Below, in pieces: positions 25,094 to 34,038 of a stretch of 64,000 nucleotides of DNA (the stretch's first letter is position 1; every line of letters begins with the position of its first letter). The notes under the pieces are model-generated. The model saw only the letters and a list, made by a program, of their open reading frames with translations. It was not told the origin of the DNA and did no database searches. A program made the position numbers and the translations under genes. This DNA is from Acidobacteriota bacterium (lineage in GTDB: Bacteria > Acidobacteriota > Blastocatellia > RBC074): positions 62,001 through 126,000 of the forward strand of contig JACPYM010000064.1 of the NCBI GenBank assembly GCA_016196035.1, given 5' to 3'.

Positions 25094-26176
25094 ATGTCTC
25101 AACTCAACAACCCGCACGACAAATTTTTCAAAGCCACCTTTGGACGGCCTGAAGTCGCGGCTGAGGTGCTCGCGCATTACCTGCCCGCCGCAACGGCGGC
25201 GGCGCTGGAATTGCGCGCACCCGCATTGGTCAAAGACTCGTTCGTGGATGACGAGTTGCAGGAACATTACTCCGACCTGCTTTACCGCGTGCGGCTCAAA
25301 CGCGGCGGCGCGGCTTATGTCTATTTGCTCTTCGAGCACAAGAGCGCACCGGATGAACTGGTCGCCTTTCAAGTGCTGCGTTACAAAGTGCGGATTTGGG
25401 AACGGTTGGCGCGCGCCAAGCCACGCAAGCTGCCGCTGATCGTGCCGCTCGTGTTTTACCACGGGCGCAAACGTTGGCGCGTCCCGCGCAGTTTCGGCGC
25501 GCTGTTGGAAGGCGGCGAACTCGCCGGGCTGCGCCAATACGTGGACGAATCGGAATATCTGCTGCTCGACCTCTCAGCCTTCAGCGCGGCGGAGCTGGTC
25601 GGCGCGGCGTTCACCCGCGTCGCCTTGCTGGTGTTGAAATACGCTTTTGAAGACCAGTTGCTCGCGCGGCTGCCAGAGATCGTGCGGCTCTTGCCCATCT
25701 GGGAGCAGAGTGCGTTAGAATACTTTGCCACCGTGCTCCGCTACGTTTCGGAGATCACGCGCCCCTTGACCAGACACGAATTTGAGGAACTGAAAACAGC
25801 GTTCCCCACAGAAACCGGAGAGATTATGGAAACAATGGCTTCCGCTTGGGTCAAAGAAGGTTTGCAAAAGGGCCGGCAAGAAGGCTTGCAACAAGGCCGG
25901 CAAGAAGGTCGGCAGGAAGGCCGGCAGGAAGGCCGGCAGGAAGGTCGGCAAGAAGGTTGGCAGGAGGGCTTGCAACAAGGCCGGCAAGAGGCGGCGCTCA
26001 CCTTCACGTTGCGTTTACTGGAACATCAAATCGGCGCGGTGGGCGCGCGCACGGCCGCGCGTTTGCGCAAGCTTTCCTTTGAGCAACTGATGGAACTCGG
26101 CGAGGCGCTGCTGGAATTCAAGTCGGCCAAAGACCTGTCCGCCTGGCTACGGGCGAAGGCGGAAAAAACTGCGTGA
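25094..26176 (+). CDS. Rpn-family recombination-promoting nuclease/putative transposase
   Basis: 360 residues. The N-terminus H-D-K-F-F-K-A-T-F-G is the Rpn/YhgA (transposase_31) hallmark. PD-(D/E)xK nuclease residues are seen in H-Y-S-D-L-L-Y and L-F-E-H-K-S. A flexible G-R-Q-E-G repeat region (about 260-299) joins it to a C-terminal DUF4351-like helical domain (L-L-E-H-Q-I-G-A-V). E. coli RpnA-type proteins are DNA endonucleases linked to RecA-independent recombination; recent work links them to phage defence. It sits directly beside a palindrome of the RAYT family, at the border of the accessory region. Confidence 0.88.
   Translation: MSQLNNPHDKFFKATFGRPEVAAEVLAHYLPAATAAALELRAPALVKDSFVDDELQEHYSDLLYRVRLKRGGAAYVYLLFEHKSAPDELVAFQVLRYKVRIWERLARAKPRKLPLIVPLVFYHGRKRWRVPRSFGALLEGGELAGLRQYVDESEYLLLDLSAFSAAELVGAAFTRVALLVLKYAFEDQLLARLPEIVRLLPIWEQSALEYFATVLRYVSEITRPLTRHEFEELKTAFPTETGEIMETMASAWVKEGLQKGRQEGLQQGRQEGRQEGRQEGRQEGRQEGWQEGLQQGRQEAALTFTLRLLEHQIGAVGARTAARLRKLSFEQLMELGEALLEFKSAKDLSAWLRAKAEKTA
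25870..25989 (+). repeat. 12-bp tandem repeat coding for G-R-Q-E / G-x-Q-x
   Basis: About ten units of the type GGCCGGCAAGAA (Gly-Arg-Gln-Glu) run through the linker of the Rpn-like gene. Unit length is a multiple of three, so copy-number change would keep the frame and alter linker length. This is common in Rpn proteins. Confidence 0.85.
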
Positions 26177-26181
26177 TCCTT

Positions 26182-26272
26182 GCGGTACCGCGCGCGTGAG
26201 CAAGCGGCACCTGCATCATTGAACCAATGTGCCGTACTTGACGAACCGCTTGCTGACGCGCGCGGTACCGTT
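26182..26272. repeat. RAYT-family palindrome, copy B (downstream of the RAYT gene)
   Basis: Arms 26182-26207 and 26246-26272 (word GGTACCGCGCGCGTGAGCAA) pair with one central mismatch (GAGC vs GACG side). It lies 6 bp past the stop of the tyrosine transposase gene and 5 bp past the end of the Rpn-like gene. It lacks the outer TA-flanked ends found in copies A and E. Confidence 0.85.
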
Positions 26273-26278
26273 CCGGCA

Positions 26279-26818
26279 TCAGTCTTCTTCTTTTTCCCAC
26301 GCGGCAAAATTCGGCAACTCATCGCCCTGGCAATTGAGCACGTAGTCTATGGCGCAAGCCAAGCTGTGTGGCGTCCAGAGCCAGCGGGTGCTGCCGTGGC
26401 GCGACCACGGTTTTTGATCGGGCGGCAACACACCGGCCTCGCGCATGCGCCGAGTGGCGTAGGCTTTCAGGTCGTTCATCGCGTCTTCAGGTTCGCGGCC
26501 TGCCGTGATTACGCTGTGGACGTGATTGGTGCGCACATTGAGCGCGTGCAACAACCACTGGCGCTGCTGGCAGACTTCGCGCACCGTCTGCTCAACCACC
26601 GTGCGACGTGCCGTGTCGAGCGTCACCGGCGCGCGGTTAAGCCGCTGGAACTCTTCGTATTCACGCAACTCATCGTGGGAAAGAAAGGGCGTGCCGTAGC
26701 GATTGTGCGACCGGTCTACTGACCCGCGCGCATCACCGTGCAGCCAGGTGCCATAACAACGGAAGGAGATAAAGTAGGCCAAGGGCCGAGCAGCTTCGTC
26801 AAACTCACGTTTGGGCAT
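26279..26818 (-). CDS. REP-associated tyrosine transposase (RAYT, Y1_Tnp/IS200-like)
   Basis: 179 residues from ATG 26818, which has GGGAGGTC 5-12 nt upstream; longer in-frame starts run into the palindrome. Domain Y1_Tnp: an HUH metal site H-V-H in the context T-N-H-V-H-S-V, and the probable catalytic tyrosine in A-I-D-Y-V-L-N-C-Q. The N-terminus Y-F-I-S-F-R-C-Y-G-T-W-L-H-G matches the family. RAYTs are single-copy, domesticated relatives of IS200/IS605 transposases that act on palindromic REP sequences as single-stranded DNA. The gene is flanked on both sides by the same long palindrome (26182-26272 and 26849-27095), as expected for a RAYT with its cognate REPs. It appears intact. Confidence 0.88.
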   Translation of the reverse strand: MPKREFDEAARPLAYFISFRCYGTWLHGDARGSVDRSHNRYGTPFLSHDELREYEEFQRLNRAPVTLDTARRTVVEQTVREVCQQRQWLLHALNVRTNHVHSVITAGREPEDAMNDLKAYATRRMREAGVLPPDQKPWSRHGSTRWLWTPHSLACAIDYVLNCQGDELPNFAAWEKEED

Positions 26819-26848: not shown

Positions 26849-27095
26849 GGGGACGGTACCGCGCGAGGACGGTACCGCGCACGTGAGCAAGCGGCCTCTG
26901 ACAAGCAAACCCACTGGCCGCAAGCCGGGCCAACAGCGGCGCCATCAAATCACACCTACTGGCCGACGGCCAAGCCTCAGCAGTAGCCCTATCACTCCAC
27001 TCGCAGGTGGAGCAGGCCAATCACCCTCACTATCTGAGTAGCCAAGGTGCCGCTTGCTGACGCGCGCGGTACCGTCCCCGCGCGGTACCGTCCCC
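26849..27095. repeat. RAYT-family palindrome, copy C (upstream of the RAYT gene), with duplicated arm ends
   Basis: Left arm 26849-26894 and right arm 27050-27095 pair over about 46 bp with few mismatches. Each arm carries the unit GGGGACGGTACCGCGCG twice in tandem or near-tandem. The 155-bp centre is longer than in other copies (about 38-46 bp). It lies 30 bp upstream of the RAYT start and ends exactly where the avd-like fragment ends. The RAYT promoter may lie inside it. Confidence 0.85.
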
Positions 27096-27262: not shown

Positions 27263-27283
27263 CATGCGTGCTTCGCACGCATG
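27263..27283 (-). other. GC-rich hairpin downstream of the DGR-type variable region
   Basis: A perfect 9-bp stem (CATGCGTGC / GCACGCATG) with a GAA loop on the minus strand, i.e. a GCGAAGC-type very stable turn. It lies about 35 nt after the stop codon of the FGE-fold gene. DGR variable regions are followed by a short GC-rich hairpin/cruciform needed for target recognition, so position and form fit. It could instead be a plain terminator, but no T-tract follows. Confidence 0.65.
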
Positions 27284-27317: not shown

Positions 27318-30300
27318 TTACTGAGTCCTCGCAGAGACAACGACACGAAAACCGAGGTCGTTGACGATGGCGGGGAGATTGAAGACGCGGAAAGCAGAAC
27401 GGCAGTAGTCCGCATCGTAGCCCCACGAGCCGCCCCGCAGCACCCGGCGACCTGAGTCTCCGCCACTCAACCAAGCTGAGCCATTCACCGGCGCGCCTTC
27501 GTAGTTGTCATGCCACACATCTTGCACCCATTCCCAAACATTGCCGTACATATCGTACAAGCCAAATTGATTGCGTTGCTTCTGCCCGACTGTATGTGTC
27601 TGGTTGCCGGAATTGCTACTGAACCACGCATACTGATCAAGCAGTTTTTCATCATCGCCAAAGCTGTATTCAGTCGTCTTGCCCGCGCGCGCGGCATATT
27701 CCCATTCGGCTTCGGTCGGCAATCGGAATTGCTTGCCGGTCATTTGTGACAGTCGTTGACAAAATTGCTGTGCGTCATTCCACGACACGCGCTCCACCGG
27801 ACGGTCAGCGCCTTTGAAGACGACATTTGGCAAGCTGCCTATCACCGCCTCCCACTGCGCCTGTGTGACCTCGTACTTGCCCATCGCAAAGCCCGCCACG
27901 CGTACCTGATGCGGTGGCTTTTCATCATCTGTGATTTTGTCCGAACCCATCGTGAATTCGCCGCCGGGCAGGGCGACCAAATCCAGCACCACATCAGCGC
28001 CCATCCTGACACGGTAGCCACCCTCGCTGGGCATAAGCTCCCAGAGGCCTTTCCCTTCCATCCCCAGCAACGGCCTGTCAGGGTCTTGCACTTCGCCCGG
28101 TCCGCCCGCCAAAGGGCCAGGGGAACCCGTCGGCGAAACTGTTGGCGTCACCGTTGGTGTCGGTGTCGGCACAGGTGTCGGCGTAGGCGTCAACGACACG
28201 CGCGGGTCAAACGTCGGGCGCGTCACCGGCGGCGCGCCGATGGGCAAGGGATCAGGCAACCGCCACATCGGCTCCGCATAAAACCGCCAGAAACAAAACG
28301 CCGCCAACGCCAGCGCCGCCACGCCCCACGTCAACGGATGCATGCCCAAGGCGCGCTGTCCGTCTTCAAACAACAACCGCTCCCACCAACGCGGCGCTTG
28401 CACGCTGAGCGGTTTGATGTGCCGCCCGGCCAGAAAGCTGAGCAGCACGTAATCGCGCAAACGGCTCTCTGGCGCTTGCCCTTGCAACAACCGGTAAAGC
28501 GCGCGCCGCCGCCGCCAACGCCGCAGCGGTTCGGCCACGGCGTTGAACCAGCGCCGCCACCAGCGCGGCTCAGCGTCTTCATCAGCAGCGGGCCGCGTTG
28601 CCACTTCCAGCGGAATGGCCGCGCCCGGTTTGGTCAACACGTGTTGCAACAGGTCTTCGATCACGCCACGCACGCGCGTGTGTTCCGTCGGCGTGAAGCG
28701 CGCCACCAATTCGCCGCGCAACCAATCGGGCATCGTCCCGTAGCGGAACCACGGCAGCCGCACCAGCCGCAACACCTGTTCGGCCCGTTCGGTGTCTTGC
28801 CCCACCAGGCGCGCGCCCAGATACAGCGTCAATTCCCAGGTCACTTGCGGATAAACCGCGCAGGCCCGCAACCAGAGCCAGCCCGCGTCGCCCAGATACG
28901 TTTCGAGGTGTTGCAACAACTGCGTGATCTCGGCGGGCGGCGGGGCTGACGTTTCCAACCAGCGTTTCAGACGCTCGGCGATAAAGGCGGGCAAGGTTGC
29001 GGCGGCGGCGCGGCGCGCCTCGGTTTGCAGTTCAAGGTTGAGGCCCGTGTTGAGCCAGGCGGTCAACGCCTCGAAACCCGCTTCATCGGCGGGCAACACC
29101 AACAGCTCGTGCGCGCGCAAAGCCTCAGTGCGGTAATCATTGGCAGAGGCCGCGACGGGCGTGAGGATGGCGCGTTCGGGCCAGTGCGCAAACTCTTCCA
29201 ACCAACGCTGGGCCGCGCCCGTGAAGGGATCAAAGAATTCCACGCCAGCGCCGAAGATCAACAAGCGATGCTCAGGGTAACGCGACGCCAATTCATTGAG
29301 CGACACACTCGGCGCAAACGGCGCGGGCCGCAGCGTGGCGCGCGCCTCGCCTTCGAAGGCATAAGGACGGCAAGCGCGCGCGTCGCCCTGGAAGTAATAC
29401 GGCTCGACGCCGATGTCACTGGCCTTCAAGCGTTCGGCCAGCGCCTCGCCCACGCGCGCCCGTTCGTCGTGGGCGCTGGCGCGCTCGATCAACAACAGAT
29501 ATTCGGGCAACGCGCGCCGCCTGCCCCAACTGGGCGTAAACAAACCGCCGCGCCGAATCGTCGCGCGAATCGTCGCGGGCACATCCAGGTCTGTGGCCGC
29601 TACGTGGCGATGGCGGCGCAAATCCACCAACGCGCGGCGCAAGGCGGGCGAATCGAAAAGCCTCACGCCATCCGCTTGCAACTTGAGCTGCCGCAACCTC
29701 GGCGTCCCGCTGGTTTGGAAGCGTTGCGCAATCAGCGTGCGCCAATACCAGCGCCAGAGAAACCAGAGCGCATAAAGCAGCAAGGGGATGAAGGTGGGCC
29801 AGAGGATTTTGTTGACCGGCTCGATGTCGCACGGAGGATTTGGGCACGGCGTCGGCGTTGCATCCGCCAAGTCAAATTTTGGTGCTGGAATGTGCGAATA
29901 GCGTTTCAGCACGATGGTTTGCCGCGTGGGCTGATGCAACAGCACGGGCTGTGAAACCGCCGGTTCGTAACTGTTGTTTGAAGCCAGCGCGCGGTCAGTG
30001 CGCCGCCGCCAAAGCCAATCGAAATTACGCGCGTGATAGGCCAATTCAAATTCGCCTTGCCGATTGGTATAGGCCATCCCATCGGCAAAGATGACATTGG
30101 CAAAGGCGACAGGCGTGCGCGTCTCGCTGTCAAGCACCTTGCCTGGGAGCGTCTGTGTGGTCTTGGCGCTGAGATAAGCAATTACACCGGCCAACAGCAA
30201 CACCGCCAACAGCGCGGCTTTCACCGGCGGACGCTGCCACGCTTGCCGCATCCACGTGCGCAATTCCGCCAACCGCTTGAACGCAGAGCGGCGAGCTTCA

Positions 30301-30611
30301 GGCAGCGGCGTCACGCTTGTTTCGTCAGGCGCTGCCACCTCAACCGCCGCTTGCAGCAAGCGTGGCCGCCGCTGCAACCACGCCTGAAAATGCGCGGCAA
30401 ACTCCTGCTGCTCGCGTTTAGACGAACAGAACAGCGGCCCCAGCAACGTGCGCCACTGTTGCGGGTCGGCGGGCAATTGCTTGGCGGCGGCCAGCCTGTC
30501 CAACAACTCGTGCGCGGTGATGTAGTGCTGCGCGCTGATGGCAAAGCCCGCGCCGCGCAATGTTTCGGCCAGGGCCAGCAGGTCTTCGAGTTGGAGGTTG
30601 GGTGCGGGCAT
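27318..30611 (-). CDS. Large membrane protein with degenerate vWA-like region and C-terminal FGE-sulfatase fold; probable DGR target
   Basis: 1097 residues from ATG 30611 (M-P-A-P-N-L-Q); an ATG 18 codons upstream lies in a palindromic repeat and is doubted. A helical N-terminus (about 1-80, like the front of CoxE/vWA proteins) precedes a transmembrane helix near 132-148. A carboxypeptidase-regulatory-like beta domain (about 154-236) and a second membrane helix (about 270-290) follow. A region resembling a vWA fold without MIDAS (from Y-L-L-L-I-E-R-A-S) comes next, then a third membrane helix and a Thr/Pro linker. The FGE domain (about 876-1097) has L-P-G-G-E-F-T-M-G-S and N-V-W-E-W-V. FGE folds are a classic DGR target scaffold. 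It is the last gene after TIR-iSTAND and MoxR. Domain limits are estimates. Confidence 0.8.
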   Translation of the reverse strand: MPAPNLQLEDLLALAETLRGAGFAISAQHYITAHELLDRLAAAKQLPADPQQWRTLLGPLFCSSKREQQEFAAHFQAWLQRRPRLLQAAVEVAAPDETSVTPLPEARRSAFKRLAELRTWMRQAWQRPPVKAALLAVLLLAGVIAYLSAKTTQTLPGKVLDSETRTPVAFANVIFADGMAYTNRQGEFELAYHARNFDWLWRRRTDRALASNNSYEPAVSQPVLLHQPTRQTIVLKRYSHIPAPKFDLADATPTPCPNPPCDIEPVNKILWPTFIPLLLYALWFLWRWYWRTLIAQRFQTSGTPRLRQLKLQADGVRLFDSPALRRALVDLRRHRHVAATDLDVPATIRATIRRGGLFTPSWGRRRALPEYLLLIERASAHDERARVGEALAERLKASDIGVEPYYFQGDARACRPYAFEGEARATLRPAPFAPSVSLNELASRYPEHRLLIFGAGVEFFDPFTGAAQRWLEEFAHWPERAILTPVAASANDYRTEALRAHELLVLPADEAGFEALTAWLNTGLNLELQTEARRAAAATLPAFIAERLKRWLETSAPPPAEITQLLQHLETYLGDAGWLWLRACAVYPQVTWELTLYLGARLVGQDTERAEQVLRLVRLPWFRYGTMPDWLRGELVARFTPTEHTRVRGVIEDLLQHVLTKPGAAIPLEVATRPAADEDAEPRWWRRWFNAVAEPLRRWRRRRALYRLLQGQAPESRLRDYVLLSFLAGRHIKPLSVQAPRWWERLLFEDGQRALGMHPLTWGVAALALAAFCFWRFYAEPMWRLPDPLPIGAPPVTRPTFDPRVSLTPTPTPVPTPTPTVTPTVSPTGSPGPLAGGPGEVQDPDRPLLGMEGKGLWELMPSEGGYRVRMGADVVLDLVALPGGEFTMGSDKITDDEKPPHQVRVAGFAMGKYEVTQAQWEAVIGSLPNVVFKGADRPVERVSWNDAQQFCQRLSQMTGKQFRLPTEAEWEYAARAGKTTEYSFGDDEKLLDQYAWFSSNSGNQTHTVGQKQRNQFGLYDMYGNVWEWVQDVWHDNYEGAPVNGSAWLSGGDSGRRVLRGGSWGYDADYCRSAFRVFNLPAIVNDLGFRVVVSARTQ
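27348..27434 (-). other. Putative DGR variable region (VR)
   Basis: The last coding segment reads G-G-S-W-G-Y-D-A-D-Y-C-R-S-A-F-R-V-F-N, then L-P-A-I-V-N-D-L-G-F. In DGR-diversified FGE proteins the template often has AAY codons at the positions after G-S-W, after S-A, and between R and G-F. Here those codons are GGC TAC GAT / GAC TAC / TTC / GTC TTC AAT CTC / ATC GTC AAC GAC: all end in C or T, as adenine-only mutagenesis of AAY would leave. The framework codons between them are typical. No template repeat is in the window, so this is inference. Confidence 0.65.
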
Positions 30612-30642
30612 AAACAATGCGAATTTGCCGACGAGTTCCCCA

Positions 30643-30820
30643 AGCCCTGAAAGGGCATAATTCAATAGCCGTGGGCAACGCCCACGGCGTGAGCAGCGGC
30701 CATTCCCGGCCCTGACAGGGCCGCATTTGAAAGCAGATTCGACCCCTTCAGGGTCGTGAACTCCTACGCGCCGTTCCGTGGGCGTGGCCCACGGCTATTG
30801 AATTACGCCCTTTCAGGGTT
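30643..30820. repeat. 178-bp inverted repeat with nested hairpins upstream of the FGE-fold gene
   Basis: Arms 30643-30687 and 30776-30820 pair over about 45 bp with a few mismatches (words CCTGAAAGGGC, TTCAATAGCCGTGGGC). Inside are further stems, for example CGGCCCTGACAGGGCCG at 30708-30724. It separates the MoxR gene from the FGE-fold gene and overlaps the doubtful upstream start of the latter. Nothing else is seen in the 269-bp gap. Confidence 0.8.
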
Positions 30821-30880: not shown

Positions 30881-31849
30881 TCACCATTCTTTGGCGATGC
30901 GGTGCGCGGCTTCCTGATCCTCTTTGATCTTGATGAGCGCGCTCAGACTTCGCTGCAACAACTTGCGTTGCGCGCGCAGCGGCTGCTCGAAATCCGCGCC
31001 CATTTCGCGCAGCGCGGTCAGCCAATCAATCAACTCGGCGGTCGCGGGCCGCTTACGCAAACCGCTGTCGCGCAAGTGTTCAAACAACGCCAGCGCCTCG
31101 GTCAACATGGGCGGCAGCCCGTTGGCGTAACTGGCGACACGGCTGGTCACGATCTGCACCAGCCGTGTGTCCTTGGGAAATTCGATGTCGTAATAGATGC
31201 AGCGGCGCAGGAAGGCTTCGGGCAGATGCTTTTCGGAATTGCTGGTCAGCACCAGGATCGGGCGCAGTTGCGGATTGGCTTCGATCCGGTCGTTGTTGAG
31301 TTCGGGCACGCGGAAGTAATGATGCTCGACCTCGTTGAGCAGATCATTCGGGAAATCGCGCGGCGCTTTGTCTATCTCGTCAATCAGCACGACCGCACGT
31401 TGCGCGCCCGTGTGCTCAAAGCCCGGCGTGCGCCAGCGCTCTGCGATGCTTGCGCGCGAACGCAGAATGGCTTCGCCCAATGCGTTCCAACGCAGGTAGC
31501 TGAGCACAGCGGCGCTCGCCCCGGTGTCTTTGGCGCGAAAGTGGCCGACCGCGTCGTAGCTGTAAAACAAATCGCGCGCCGTGCTGTTGGACTTGGTCTC
31601 GAATTTGAGCGGCACGCCCAGCCCCAACGTGTGCGCCAGATGTCGCGCCAATTCGGTCTTGCCGGTGCCCGGTTCGCCCGTCAGCAAAAGCGGCTGGCTC
31701 AGCAGCAGCGCGACATTCACGGCATCCACCAGACCGTCATCGGGCAGATAGCCCGCCGGATCGGTTTGGCGGGCGCGGCTGAATTCGGGCAAGGCCACCG
31801 TGCCGTCAGTCTCGCGGTGTGTGGGATTCGGGTAAAAAGGATAGGGCAT
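30881..31849 (-). CDS. MoxR-family AAA+ ATPase
   Basis: 322 residues from ATG 31849 (M-P-Y-P-F-Y), with AGGAG 6-7 nt upstream; the longer frame runs into palindrome copy D. Walker A G-E-P-G-T-G-K-T is at 58-65, Walker B V-V-L-I-D-E-I-D-K-A-P is mid-protein, sensor 1 is in L-T-S-N-S-E-K, and the arginine-finger region is F-L-R-R-C. MoxR ATPases remodel or activate partner proteins, usually with a vWA protein. Here the neighbours are a TIR-iSTAND-like protein upstream and a membrane protein with a vWA-like region downstream. This matches the published class of NTP-dependent MoxR/vWA/TIR conflict systems. Cytoplasmic. Confidence 0.9.
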   Translation of the reverse strand: MPYPFYPNPTHRETDGTVALPEFSRARQTDPAGYLPDDGLVDAVNVALLLSQPLLLTGEPGTGKTELARHLAHTLGLGVPLKFETKSNSTARDLFYSYDAVGHFRAKDTGASAAVLSYLRWNALGEAILRSRASIAERWRTPGFEHTGAQRAVVLIDEIDKAPRDFPNDLLNEVEHHYFRVPELNNDRIEANPQLRPILVLTSNSEKHLPEAFLRRCIYYDIEFPKDTRLVQIVTSRVASYANGLPPMLTEALALFEHLRDSGLRKRPATAELIDWLTALREMGADFEQPLRAQRKLLQRSLSALIKIKEDQEAAHRIAKEW

Positions 31850-31872
31850 GGTGAACTCCTCAAATAAAGATT

Positions 31873-32010
31873 TAGAGCCGTTTGCAATGGCGTTTACGAG
31901 AGTCAGTTGACGCCGGGACAGTACCGCGCGCGTGAGCAAGCGGCGCGTCAAGCTACCCGCATTGGCTGAATTGCCAAGGTGCCGCTTGCTCACGCGCGCG
32001 GTACTGTCCC
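31873..32010. repeat. RAYT-family palindrome, copy D (left outer end only)
   Basis: Starts with TAGAGCCGTTTGCAATGGCG (from 31873), the outer end shared with copies A and E. Then come inner arms 31915-31943 and 31982-32010, which are perfect complements. The right outer end is missing: the element stops 7 bp from the TIR gene stop codon. It occupies almost the whole gap between the TIR and MoxR genes, so it is transcribed within the operon. Confidence 0.85.
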
Positions 32011-32017
32011 ACAAAGA

Positions 32018-33418
32018 TCAGGAAGACCGCTGTTCCAACAGGGCTTCGAGTTTCATTTCAAAGGCGCGCATGGAAATTTGCTCGGCCTCGCTAAACAAAT
32101 CGTCAATCCACTGTTTGCTAATGCGGAAACGCTCGCCGATTTGATGAATGCGGTACCAGGCTCTGACATCGTCTTGCGTCAACGCGGGCAATTCGGGCAA
32201 GGCCACGCCGCAACATTGCGGGTAAGCTGAAAAATCCTGCTCAAGTTCCCGCAACAAGACTTGCAACTGCTGCTCCCAGGCCTGCCGCTGTTTGAGTTTG
32301 AAGTCGAACCAGCGTGGCTGCGGCTGCTCTTCAAAGCGGAAGCAGAGGCAGAGCAGCACGACGCGATTGAGCGGCAAGTCTTCCCACGCCGCGCAAAATT
32401 GCAAAAACGCAGGCAACAAGTCAGCGCCGGGCTGTTTGAATAGCTTGGTCGAAAGGTCGAGCGTGACGATCAGCGGGTCTTCGCTCTGTTTCAACAATTC
32501 ATAAACCGCCTGCTGCGGCTCCTGGTCGGCGTCACTGACTTCCAAGGCGACGGCCAGCTCCCACCAAAATCCGGCGGGGCTTTCAAACGCCGTGTGTGCC
32601 GCGCGCAACGGAATCTCGCGTGGCCCGGCGGCCTTGCTCGTGCGGGTCAACAACTTTTTCAACGGGCCTTTGTACATGCGTTCTAAAAACTCGACGTGGC
32701 TCTCGAATCTGTGGCCGTGCAACAGGCAAACGACCGGACGGCGCGACTGGCTTTGGCGATGTTGTTTGAGCGCTTGCACAAGAGCCGCTTCCTGTTTGCC
32801 GCGGTCGCACAGATGCGGCAGCAACGCGGGCAACGCGGTGACGACGGTTTGGGCGGCGGACGGTTCGGTTTGGGCGGCGGACGGTTCGGTTTGGGCGGAT
32901 GGAGTGGTCTGCGTGGCGGCTTCAGGCGCAGCGGCAGGCGCGCTCGCAGGCGGCTGTTGTTTGGCTTGCAACTGTTCGATAGCGCGGCGCATGCCTTCTT
33001 CCACGTCCAACCAGGCTTCATCGCGATTGGCCCAACTGGTGACGGGTTTGGCGTCTTTGGGCAGCGCCTGTAATTTGCCGAAGGGCGCACTTTGCCAGCG
33101 GCAGGGACGCAGGATGATGGGAATCACCAGCGCCGGGTCAGCCTGGCTGGCGTGCCGTTCGAGCGCGCGCTTCATTTCGATGTCGTAACAGTAGTCCGAC
33201 GCGATGAAATCTGAACTGACGAGTAACAGGATGATCCGCGCGCTTTCCAGGTGCTCGTCAATCGCGTTCTTCCATTCTTCGCCCGCGCCGATTTGGCGGT
33301 CGTGCCAGGGTTCAATCACGCCTGCGCGCACGAGAATTTTCAGGTGCCGGTCGAGTTCGTTGCGCAGCGTTTCATCCAGATGCGCGTATGAGTAAAAGAC
33401 TTTGATGGGGGATGCCAT
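32018..33418 (-). CDS. TIR-domain protein with C-terminal iSTAND-like domain
   Basis: 466 residues from ATG 33418 (M-A-S-P-I-K-V-F-Y-S-Y), preceded by GAGG. The TIR domain (about 1-150) shows F-Y-S-Y-A-H-L-D, W-H-D-R-Q-I-G-A-G-E and S-D-Y-C-Y-D-I-E-M, with Glu81 in the position of the NAD-cleaving glutamate. A linker has repeats of E-P-S-A-A-Q-T. The C-terminal half (about 210-400) begins L-C-D-R-G-K-Q-E and has V-V-C-L-L-H-G-H, the look of the inactive STAND (iSTAND) domain described in bacterial conflict systems. The likely role is an NADase effector, triggered with MoxR and the FGE-fold protein encoded next. iSTAND assignment is less certain than TIR. Confidence 0.88.
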   Translation of the reverse strand: MASPIKVFYSYAHLDETLRNELDRHLKILVRAGVIEPWHDRQIGAGEEWKNAIDEHLESARIILLLVSSDFIASDYCYDIEMKRALERHASQADPALVIPIILRPCRWQSAPFGKLQALPKDAKPVTSWANRDEAWLDVEEGMRRAIEQLQAKQQPPASAPAAAPEAATQTTPSAQTEPSAAQTEPSAAQTVVTALPALLPHLCDRGKQEAALVQALKQHRQSQSRRPVVCLLHGHRFESHVEFLERMYKGPLKKLLTRTSKAAGPREIPLRAAHTAFESPAGFWWELAVALEVSDADQEPQQAVYELLKQSEDPLIVTLDLSTKLFKQPGADLLPAFLQFCAAWEDLPLNRVVLLCLCFRFEEQPQPRWFDFKLKQRQAWEQQLQVLLRELEQDFSAYPQCCGVALPELPALTQDDVRAWYRIHQIGERFRISKQWIDDLFSEAEQISMRAFEMKLEALLEQRSS

Positions 33419-34038
33419 ACACACCTCGTTGCAACCAATGTTCGCCCACTGCCTGAGCACTGCTTGTTTGAAGGACGGCCTGTGAATTGAGCCGAATATA
33501 CTGGGGCGCGCTGAACCTGCTGAAAACGGGCGCAGGTATAGCACTGCGGGGCGCGGCTTGGCAATGTGCGCGGCAACGGGGCACAGCCGTTTTGCAAAGT
33601 CAGCGGGCGCGCCGACCGAGCGGCATAAGACTGAATCCCGATTCCTGACTCCTGATTTCGTAAAAATCAGGAGTCAGGAATCGGGATTCGGGATTCGGGA
33701 TTCAGTGTCGCGTGTTGTTTGCCAAACAATTCACCTGCGTAAAAACCTGCCAGGCGGTAAGGCAGAACAGGTGTTGCCATTTTTCGTTTGACCACGGCAC
33801 CGTTTTCATAGACGGCTAATGTCTGGTCGCGCCTCCGGGGCAAAAACGCAAAAGTTTGGGCAACGACAAGGCCAGCAACGGCGTCGCTTTCATTCTTACC
33901 CCGAAGGCCTATAATGCGGCGCGTTCGTTGCCCAAACCAATCTGCATTCAGCAGACAGACGGAAGCCCGGCGGCTTCTGTTTCTTGCAACACCGAGCATC
34001 GCCACCGCCGCATCCGTTTCAATTCAAGGAGGTCAAGC
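33419..34038. other. Divergent intergenic region between the TIR operon and the endolysin-like gene
   Basis: 620 bp. It should hold the operon promoter on the minus strand. The hairpin at 33631-33704 is the only structure seen. In-frame extension of the plus-strand muramidase ORF to 33856 has no family similarity and is rejected. AAGGAGGTC at 34027-34035 marks the downstream start. Confidence 0.5.
33631..33704. repeat. Long hairpin with extra tandem arm units
   Basis: Left arm 33631-33658 (CTGAATCCCGATTCCTGACT...) pairs with 33663-33690, leaving a 4-nt turn. The right side then carries additional GGGATTC units to 33704. The imbalance suggests 7-bp slippage on one arm. Confidence 0.8.

Follow-up and report, generated by a model that had tools for sequence, protein, structure and literature searches.

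A probable stranded DGR target beside the remnant of its cassette in a MoxR/TIR operon of an acidobacterial genome

In the stretch of 64,000 nucleotides of Acidobacteriota DNA analysed here (the window), the 3' end of a long minus-strand gene encodes the C-terminus of an FGE-fold domain in codons that almost all end in C or T. One question then is whether this is the variable region (VR) of a DGR target, as a sequence-only reading had proposed, and, if so, whether a cassette is still writing it. The evidence leads us to conclude that the VR very probably belongs to a DGR target gene now severed from its own cassette and left as a stranded and frozen target. The DGR descent of the VR, as first proposed, has stood; of a cassette in cis there is a truncated avd gene, with RT and template (TR) missing. 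The main uncertainty of this verdict is the draft status of the assembly (139 contigs, 96.9% complete), in which templates were sought by blastn across the genome and by scripts run over the retrieved loci. The features of the locus are collected in the table.

Features of the locus in window coordinates
Feature	Position	Strand	Basis or remark
TIR + iSTAND protein, first gene of the operon	32018..33544	-	PF13676, PF19995; ThsB-like TIR
MoxR-like AAA ATPase, upstream of target, same operon	30881..32014	-	PF07728; weak bpMoxR
DGR target gene, 1115 aa (probable)	27318..30665	-	ORF; C-terminal FGE-sulfatase (C-type lectin) domain
FGE-fold (C-type lectin) domain bearing the VR	27339..27983	-	Pfam; AlphaFold; PDB neighbours
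VR	about 27321..27447	-	borders from homology to C91 and C104 VR/TR repeats
Constant 3' part of VR, IMH-like	27324..27353	-	identical in C35
Hairpin CATGCGTGC-GAA-GCACGCATG, putative target-recognition hairpin/cruciform	27263..27283	-	DNA fold
avd cut short after ~46 of ~130 codons	27097..27237	-	frame read; match to C91 Avd
REP-type inverted repeat pair, 47-nt arms	26849..27095	.	abuts avd break
RAYT-like (REP-associated tyrosine; Y1/RAYT-type) transposase	26279..26818	-	PF01797 above cut-off; NF047646 below its cut-off
Second REP inverted pair, far side of transposase	26183..26270	.	repeat analysis

The target protein combines a long N-terminal region, for which the Pfam search returned no match, with a C-terminal PF03781 domain (aa 895-1109, E=5e-54). 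The AlphaFold model of this domain, built from 24 aligned homologues, has a pLDDT of 90.2 and finds its structural matches in PvdO, TvpA and FGE. Likewise, the top PDB sequence match of the target is Treponema denticola TvpA (2y3c, E=8e-37), in an alignment that spans the VR, and the two proteins share both the FGE-type C-type lectin fold and the C-terminal position of the VR. TvpA is part of a working DGR, and is not known to have an N-terminal region or an operon of the window type. On alignment with human FGE, the position of C336 is occupied by Tyr and the second active-site Cys is retained; since the first active-site Cys is thus replaced, enzymatic FGE activity of the target protein appears improbable. 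A contig scan of genomes found no close orthologue of the whole gene and returned FGE homologues from many phyla.

The C-terminus itself reads GGSW-GYDADYCRSAFRVFNLPAIVNDLGFRVVVSARTQ up to the stop codon, and re-reading of the minus-strand ORF bore out the codons that had been listed after GGSW. Of the 24 codons that follow GGSW, 23 end in C or T (NNY), compared with 45.7% across the remaining gene (binomial P about 2e-7). No other FGE C-terminus compared in this genome reaches this count: VRs with an identified TR score 19-22/24 and most template-free paralogues 8-18/24. The NNY pattern, earlier taken for the signature of a DGR, is not diagnostic alone, because the framework codons (TGC CGT TCT GCT) are NNY too and some paralogues with no assigned template (those on contigs C61, C109 and C99) also reach 19-22/24. 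We accordingly dropped NNY content by itself as proof of DGR origin; it supports a DGR VR without being decisive. The VR does lie where it had been placed, at 27318-27434, and turns out to be slightly longer. Its constant 3' part has the AGGACT form seen in VRs, whereas most TRs carry instead an AGC/AGT form.

What lies downstream of the stop codon had been overlooked in the sequence-only reading, and comprises a hairpin, a stump of avd and a mobile element at the end of the cassette. The hairpin starts 34 nt past the stop codon and is predicted to fold at -10.7 kcal/mol (z=-4.1); those of the DGR cassettes on contigs C91 and C104 are placed likewise, 34 and 35 bp past their stops. Relative to the window hairpin, two base pairs are altered on both sides in these stems, a covariation that is statistically weak (three sequences; 57/500 shuffles do as well). 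Homing in BPP-1 requires a hairpin/cruciform structure downstream of the VR (Guo et al. 2011, PMC3240598), and the window resembles it in having a GC-rich stem there; in BPP-1 the stem measures 7-10 bp, and its structure matters, not its sequence (PMC3240598). The window hairpin differs in combining a 9-bp stem with a GAA (or CGAAG) loop in place of the 4-nt GRNA loop of BPP-1, and in lying about 37 bp past the VR, slightly farther than the reference range of 4-34 bp.

The avd stump is 83% identical to the C91 Avd over 42 aa (E=3e-20). Its remaining part was sought elsewhere and not found, and no RT, TR or further avd was found within the window, so that all three components of a complete cis DGR, namely RT, TR and full-length Avd, are wanting here, while two features expected of a DGR target by descent, a C-terminal FGE VR with NNY codons and a downstream hairpin, are present. 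The stump ends at a REP/RAYT element, a RAYT-like transposase flanked by REP pairs, and the REP core has 664 matches with at most 2 mismatches in the 9.6-Mb genome (reversed control, 0). The genome matches listed for the REP-like palindrome GGTACCGCGCGCGTNAGCAAGCGG are mostly inverted pairs, and the FGE gene on contig C116 is likewise followed by a REP pair, at most about 100 bp past the stop codon. Beyond the element lies an Rpn/YhgA-like gene (25094-26176; PF04754 and DUF4351, with an internal QEGRQEG-type repeat); an Rpn-like gene seems also to lie close behind the C35 variable region.

The operon upstream of the break can be followed into relatives. The association of MoxR and target is retained in G005, G006, G008 and G002, and the TIR-iSTAND gene in the first three of these. 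G005 (locus L197) has kept the cassette intact, its genes following one another as TIR-iSTAND, MoxR, target, avd, RT, TR (identities to our queries: FGE 59%, MoxR 53%, RT 62%); its VR and TR differ, within the repeat, at template adenines and at one other site. The gene order of the window is the same as far as the avd break. In G006 (L199), TIR, MoxR and target are present, a TR comes directly downstream, and no RT was found in the 9 kb examined. The locus in G008 (L198, contig C57) has the TIR, MoxR and N-terminal region of the window operon, and its target is without an FGE domain. The annotated N-terminus of the window's MoxR may be overlong. The operon may belong to the MoxR-vWA ternary conflict systems, which combine a MoxR ATPase, a vWA protein and an effector/VMAP protein: a MoxR-like AAA and a TIR-iSTAND protein are there, and Pfam gave no match to vWA or VMAP. 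The target protein is probably the sensor of a MoxR/TIR conflict-type operon.

The genome itself holds three DGR RTs, on C104, C91 and C33, each adjoining FGE genes and each with a TR, so that the search advised earlier for such an enzyme succeeded. In both the C91 and the C104 cassette the target is followed by avd, RT and TR. The two are related, with RTs 71-73% and Avd proteins 87% identical; these Avd proteins are NF033474. Their 129-bp VR/TR repeats mismatch at template adenines only, bar one site close to the 3' end (AGG/AGC or AGG/AGT). Seven FGE VRs in all fit the three TRs with 1-4 non-adenine mismatches: the C91 VR its own TR (1/103), the C104 and the remote C7 VRs the C104 TR (1/105 each), and C33a, C33b and the remote C84 VRs (2/98 each) together with the remote C34 VR (4/98) the C33 TR. 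Since the three remote VRs fit the C104 and C33 TRs in this comparison, their writing in trans is strongly suggested. Most FGE-domain paralogues in the genome are without a fitting TR.

The same is true of the window VR, and the near-identical template with adenine-only mismatches for which a search had been advised is absent from the assembly. No fitting TR was found there, nor a better template in the loci of relatives, and the VRs of the window, C35 and C116 each show 26-33 non-adenine mismatches to the C91, C104 and C33 TRs, which are thereby ruled out as the window's template. The C35 VR, at 85% identity the closest to that of the window, was likewise rejected as a template: it is itself the C-terminus of an FGE gene and has five non-adenine differences in 86 bases.

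As a sister copy, however, it is informative. The two VRs are identical over 26 bases at the 5' end and over 46 across the 3' end, framework blocks with no second copy in the assembly besides the C35 gene. The similarity begins at the border of the C91/C104 repeats, and directly upstream only 24/60 bp are identical. Because the framework ends of the VR are exact in both although the upstream scaffold differs, the comparison suggests that both VRs were written from one shared template, since lost. Where the C91 template has adenine, the two VRs differ in 14 of 24 columns, versus 5 of 60 other columns (P=3e-6), which agrees with variation at template-adenine codons. By codon position 1/2/3 the differences within the VR number 8/8/3, against 73/73/116 in the upstream domain, so that the share of positions 1 and 2 is 16/19 versus 146/262 (Fisher P=0.016). 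Such biases in codon position and adenine columns are what one would expect if a single template had been copied twice, independently; a 3-bp length difference and three wobble-site differences, which one shared template does not readily account for, show later drift or a more complex history.

The history that we favour, that of a target cut off from its cassette, can be put together as follows. The ancestral order would have been that of G005 today: TIR-iSTAND and MoxR, then the target, made up of its N-terminal region and the VR-bearing FGE domain, and after it the hairpin, avd, RT and TR. The RT, together with Avd, would have reverse-transcribed the TR, putting random bases at adenines, and the resulting cDNA would have replaced the VR beside the hairpin, thereby changing a set of residues close to the C-terminal end of the FGE/C-type lectin fold. 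The REP/RAYT element now sits at the avd break, and with the remaining avd, RT and TR gone, the VR would be frozen at its last variant. We thus infer both past retrohoming at this VR and present inactivity of the DGR; the position of the REP/RAYT element suggests that it caused the loss. With a truncated avd, neither RT nor TR beside it and no fit to any TR identified in the genome, diversification in cis today is unlikely. That the VR belongs to a DGR on an FGE (C-type lectin) scaffold, as first proposed, is supported by the cassette remnant, by the genome's RTs, TRs and FGE targets and by the complete syntenic cassette. Against the stranded target we count the missing TR, the length and wobble differences from C35, a hairpin covariation drawn from three sequences and a cause of the loss read from position.

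Whatever its origin, the VR might still be diversified in trans by one of the three RTs, from a TR that the draft assembly lacks or that only part of the population carries. The incompleteness of the assembly, the indicated trans targeting of C7, C84 and C34, the intact hairpin and 3' constant region of the window and the broken variants beside intact ones at the DGR loci of Doré et al. (PMC10907252) are all in keeping with this, but the REP/RAYT element occupies the position of the cis TR and the framework blocks recur in the C35 gene only, and we hold continued writing in trans to be distinctly unlikely. If the VR had instead been written by one of the present TRs (C91, C104 or C33) and had then drifted, the relatedness of the C91 and C104 systems would be some encouragement; about 100 sites compared, it would nevertheless have to carry 27-32 non-adenine mismatches where real pairs have 1-4, and its 3' framework agrees exactly with C35 but with none of the three TRs, so that this origin fails on current data and is barely credible.

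A more radical alternative is that the gene is an ordinary FGE-fold paralogue which was never a DGR target and owes its NNY pattern to codon bias. It may appeal to the many FGE-domain paralogues of the genome without a fitting TR and to the frequency of NNY codons in template-free paralogues as well. It is contradicted by the avd stump, and the hairpin, the intact syntenic G005 cassette and the VR-bordered identity with C35 also speak against it; we consider it very improbable.

The stranded target is an object of an already known kind in another lineage, since transposon-broken DGRs at similar operons, their components replaced by mobile-element repeats, were reported in Thiohalocapsa PB-PSB1 (Doré et al. 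2024, PMC10907252). There, extended targets lie directly downstream of MoxR, with the variable domain proposed as an antigen sensor, and some VRs have no perfect template in the assembly (PMC10907252). The window shares with Thiohalocapsa DGRs 4, 5, 7 and 8 a putative DGR-diversified FGE/C-type lectin sensor beside MoxR ATPases and TIR-type effectors, and with that genome as a whole the presence of several DGRs, trans targets and replacement of RT/TR by mobile-element repeats (PMC10907252). It differs in that the break falls inside avd at a REP/RAYT element, both RT and TR are lost and a vWA domain did not turn up in the target. In cyanobacterial DGRs with remote variable proteins, one DGR genome similarly combines many C-type lectin paralogues, remote VRs and nearby transposases (Vallota-Eastman et al. 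2020, PMC7517822). Unlike the remote targets there, which were assigned by TR identity above 50% (PMC7517822), the window VR can be assigned to no TR and still has part of avd behind it, and for these reasons we take it for a former cis target rather than a remote one. Searching the literature for acidobacterial DGRs turned up one paper, with another focus.

With a cut-off cassette by a frozen hypervariable sensor, three other cassettes, remote targets that match their templates and an intact syntenic cassette in a relative, the locus offers a case in which DGR decay can be dissected, and it opens the question of whether a stranded target remains useful in fixed form as a sensor, decays, or comes under the control of a different template. 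Conceivably, orphan VRs are part of a standing repertoire, in which cassette-less targets keep a usable hairpin/IMH and stay open to capture by another template, an idea that we regard as unlikely. The C7 gene would then be an example of recapture: its scaffold immediately ahead of the VR is similar to that of the window gene, whereas its VR fits the C104 template. No RT on contig C84 emerged from the genome-wide RT search. At the C7 locus (L052, C7:66745-66944) the VR fits the C104 template at 104/105 non-adenine sites, and a 2-bp insertion in the VR gives a frameshifted C-terminus; on C84 (L008:2219-2323) a short second template-like sequence, HLRGGAWFNNNDNARAVNRNNNTGFRLVV, lies downstream of the FGE target.
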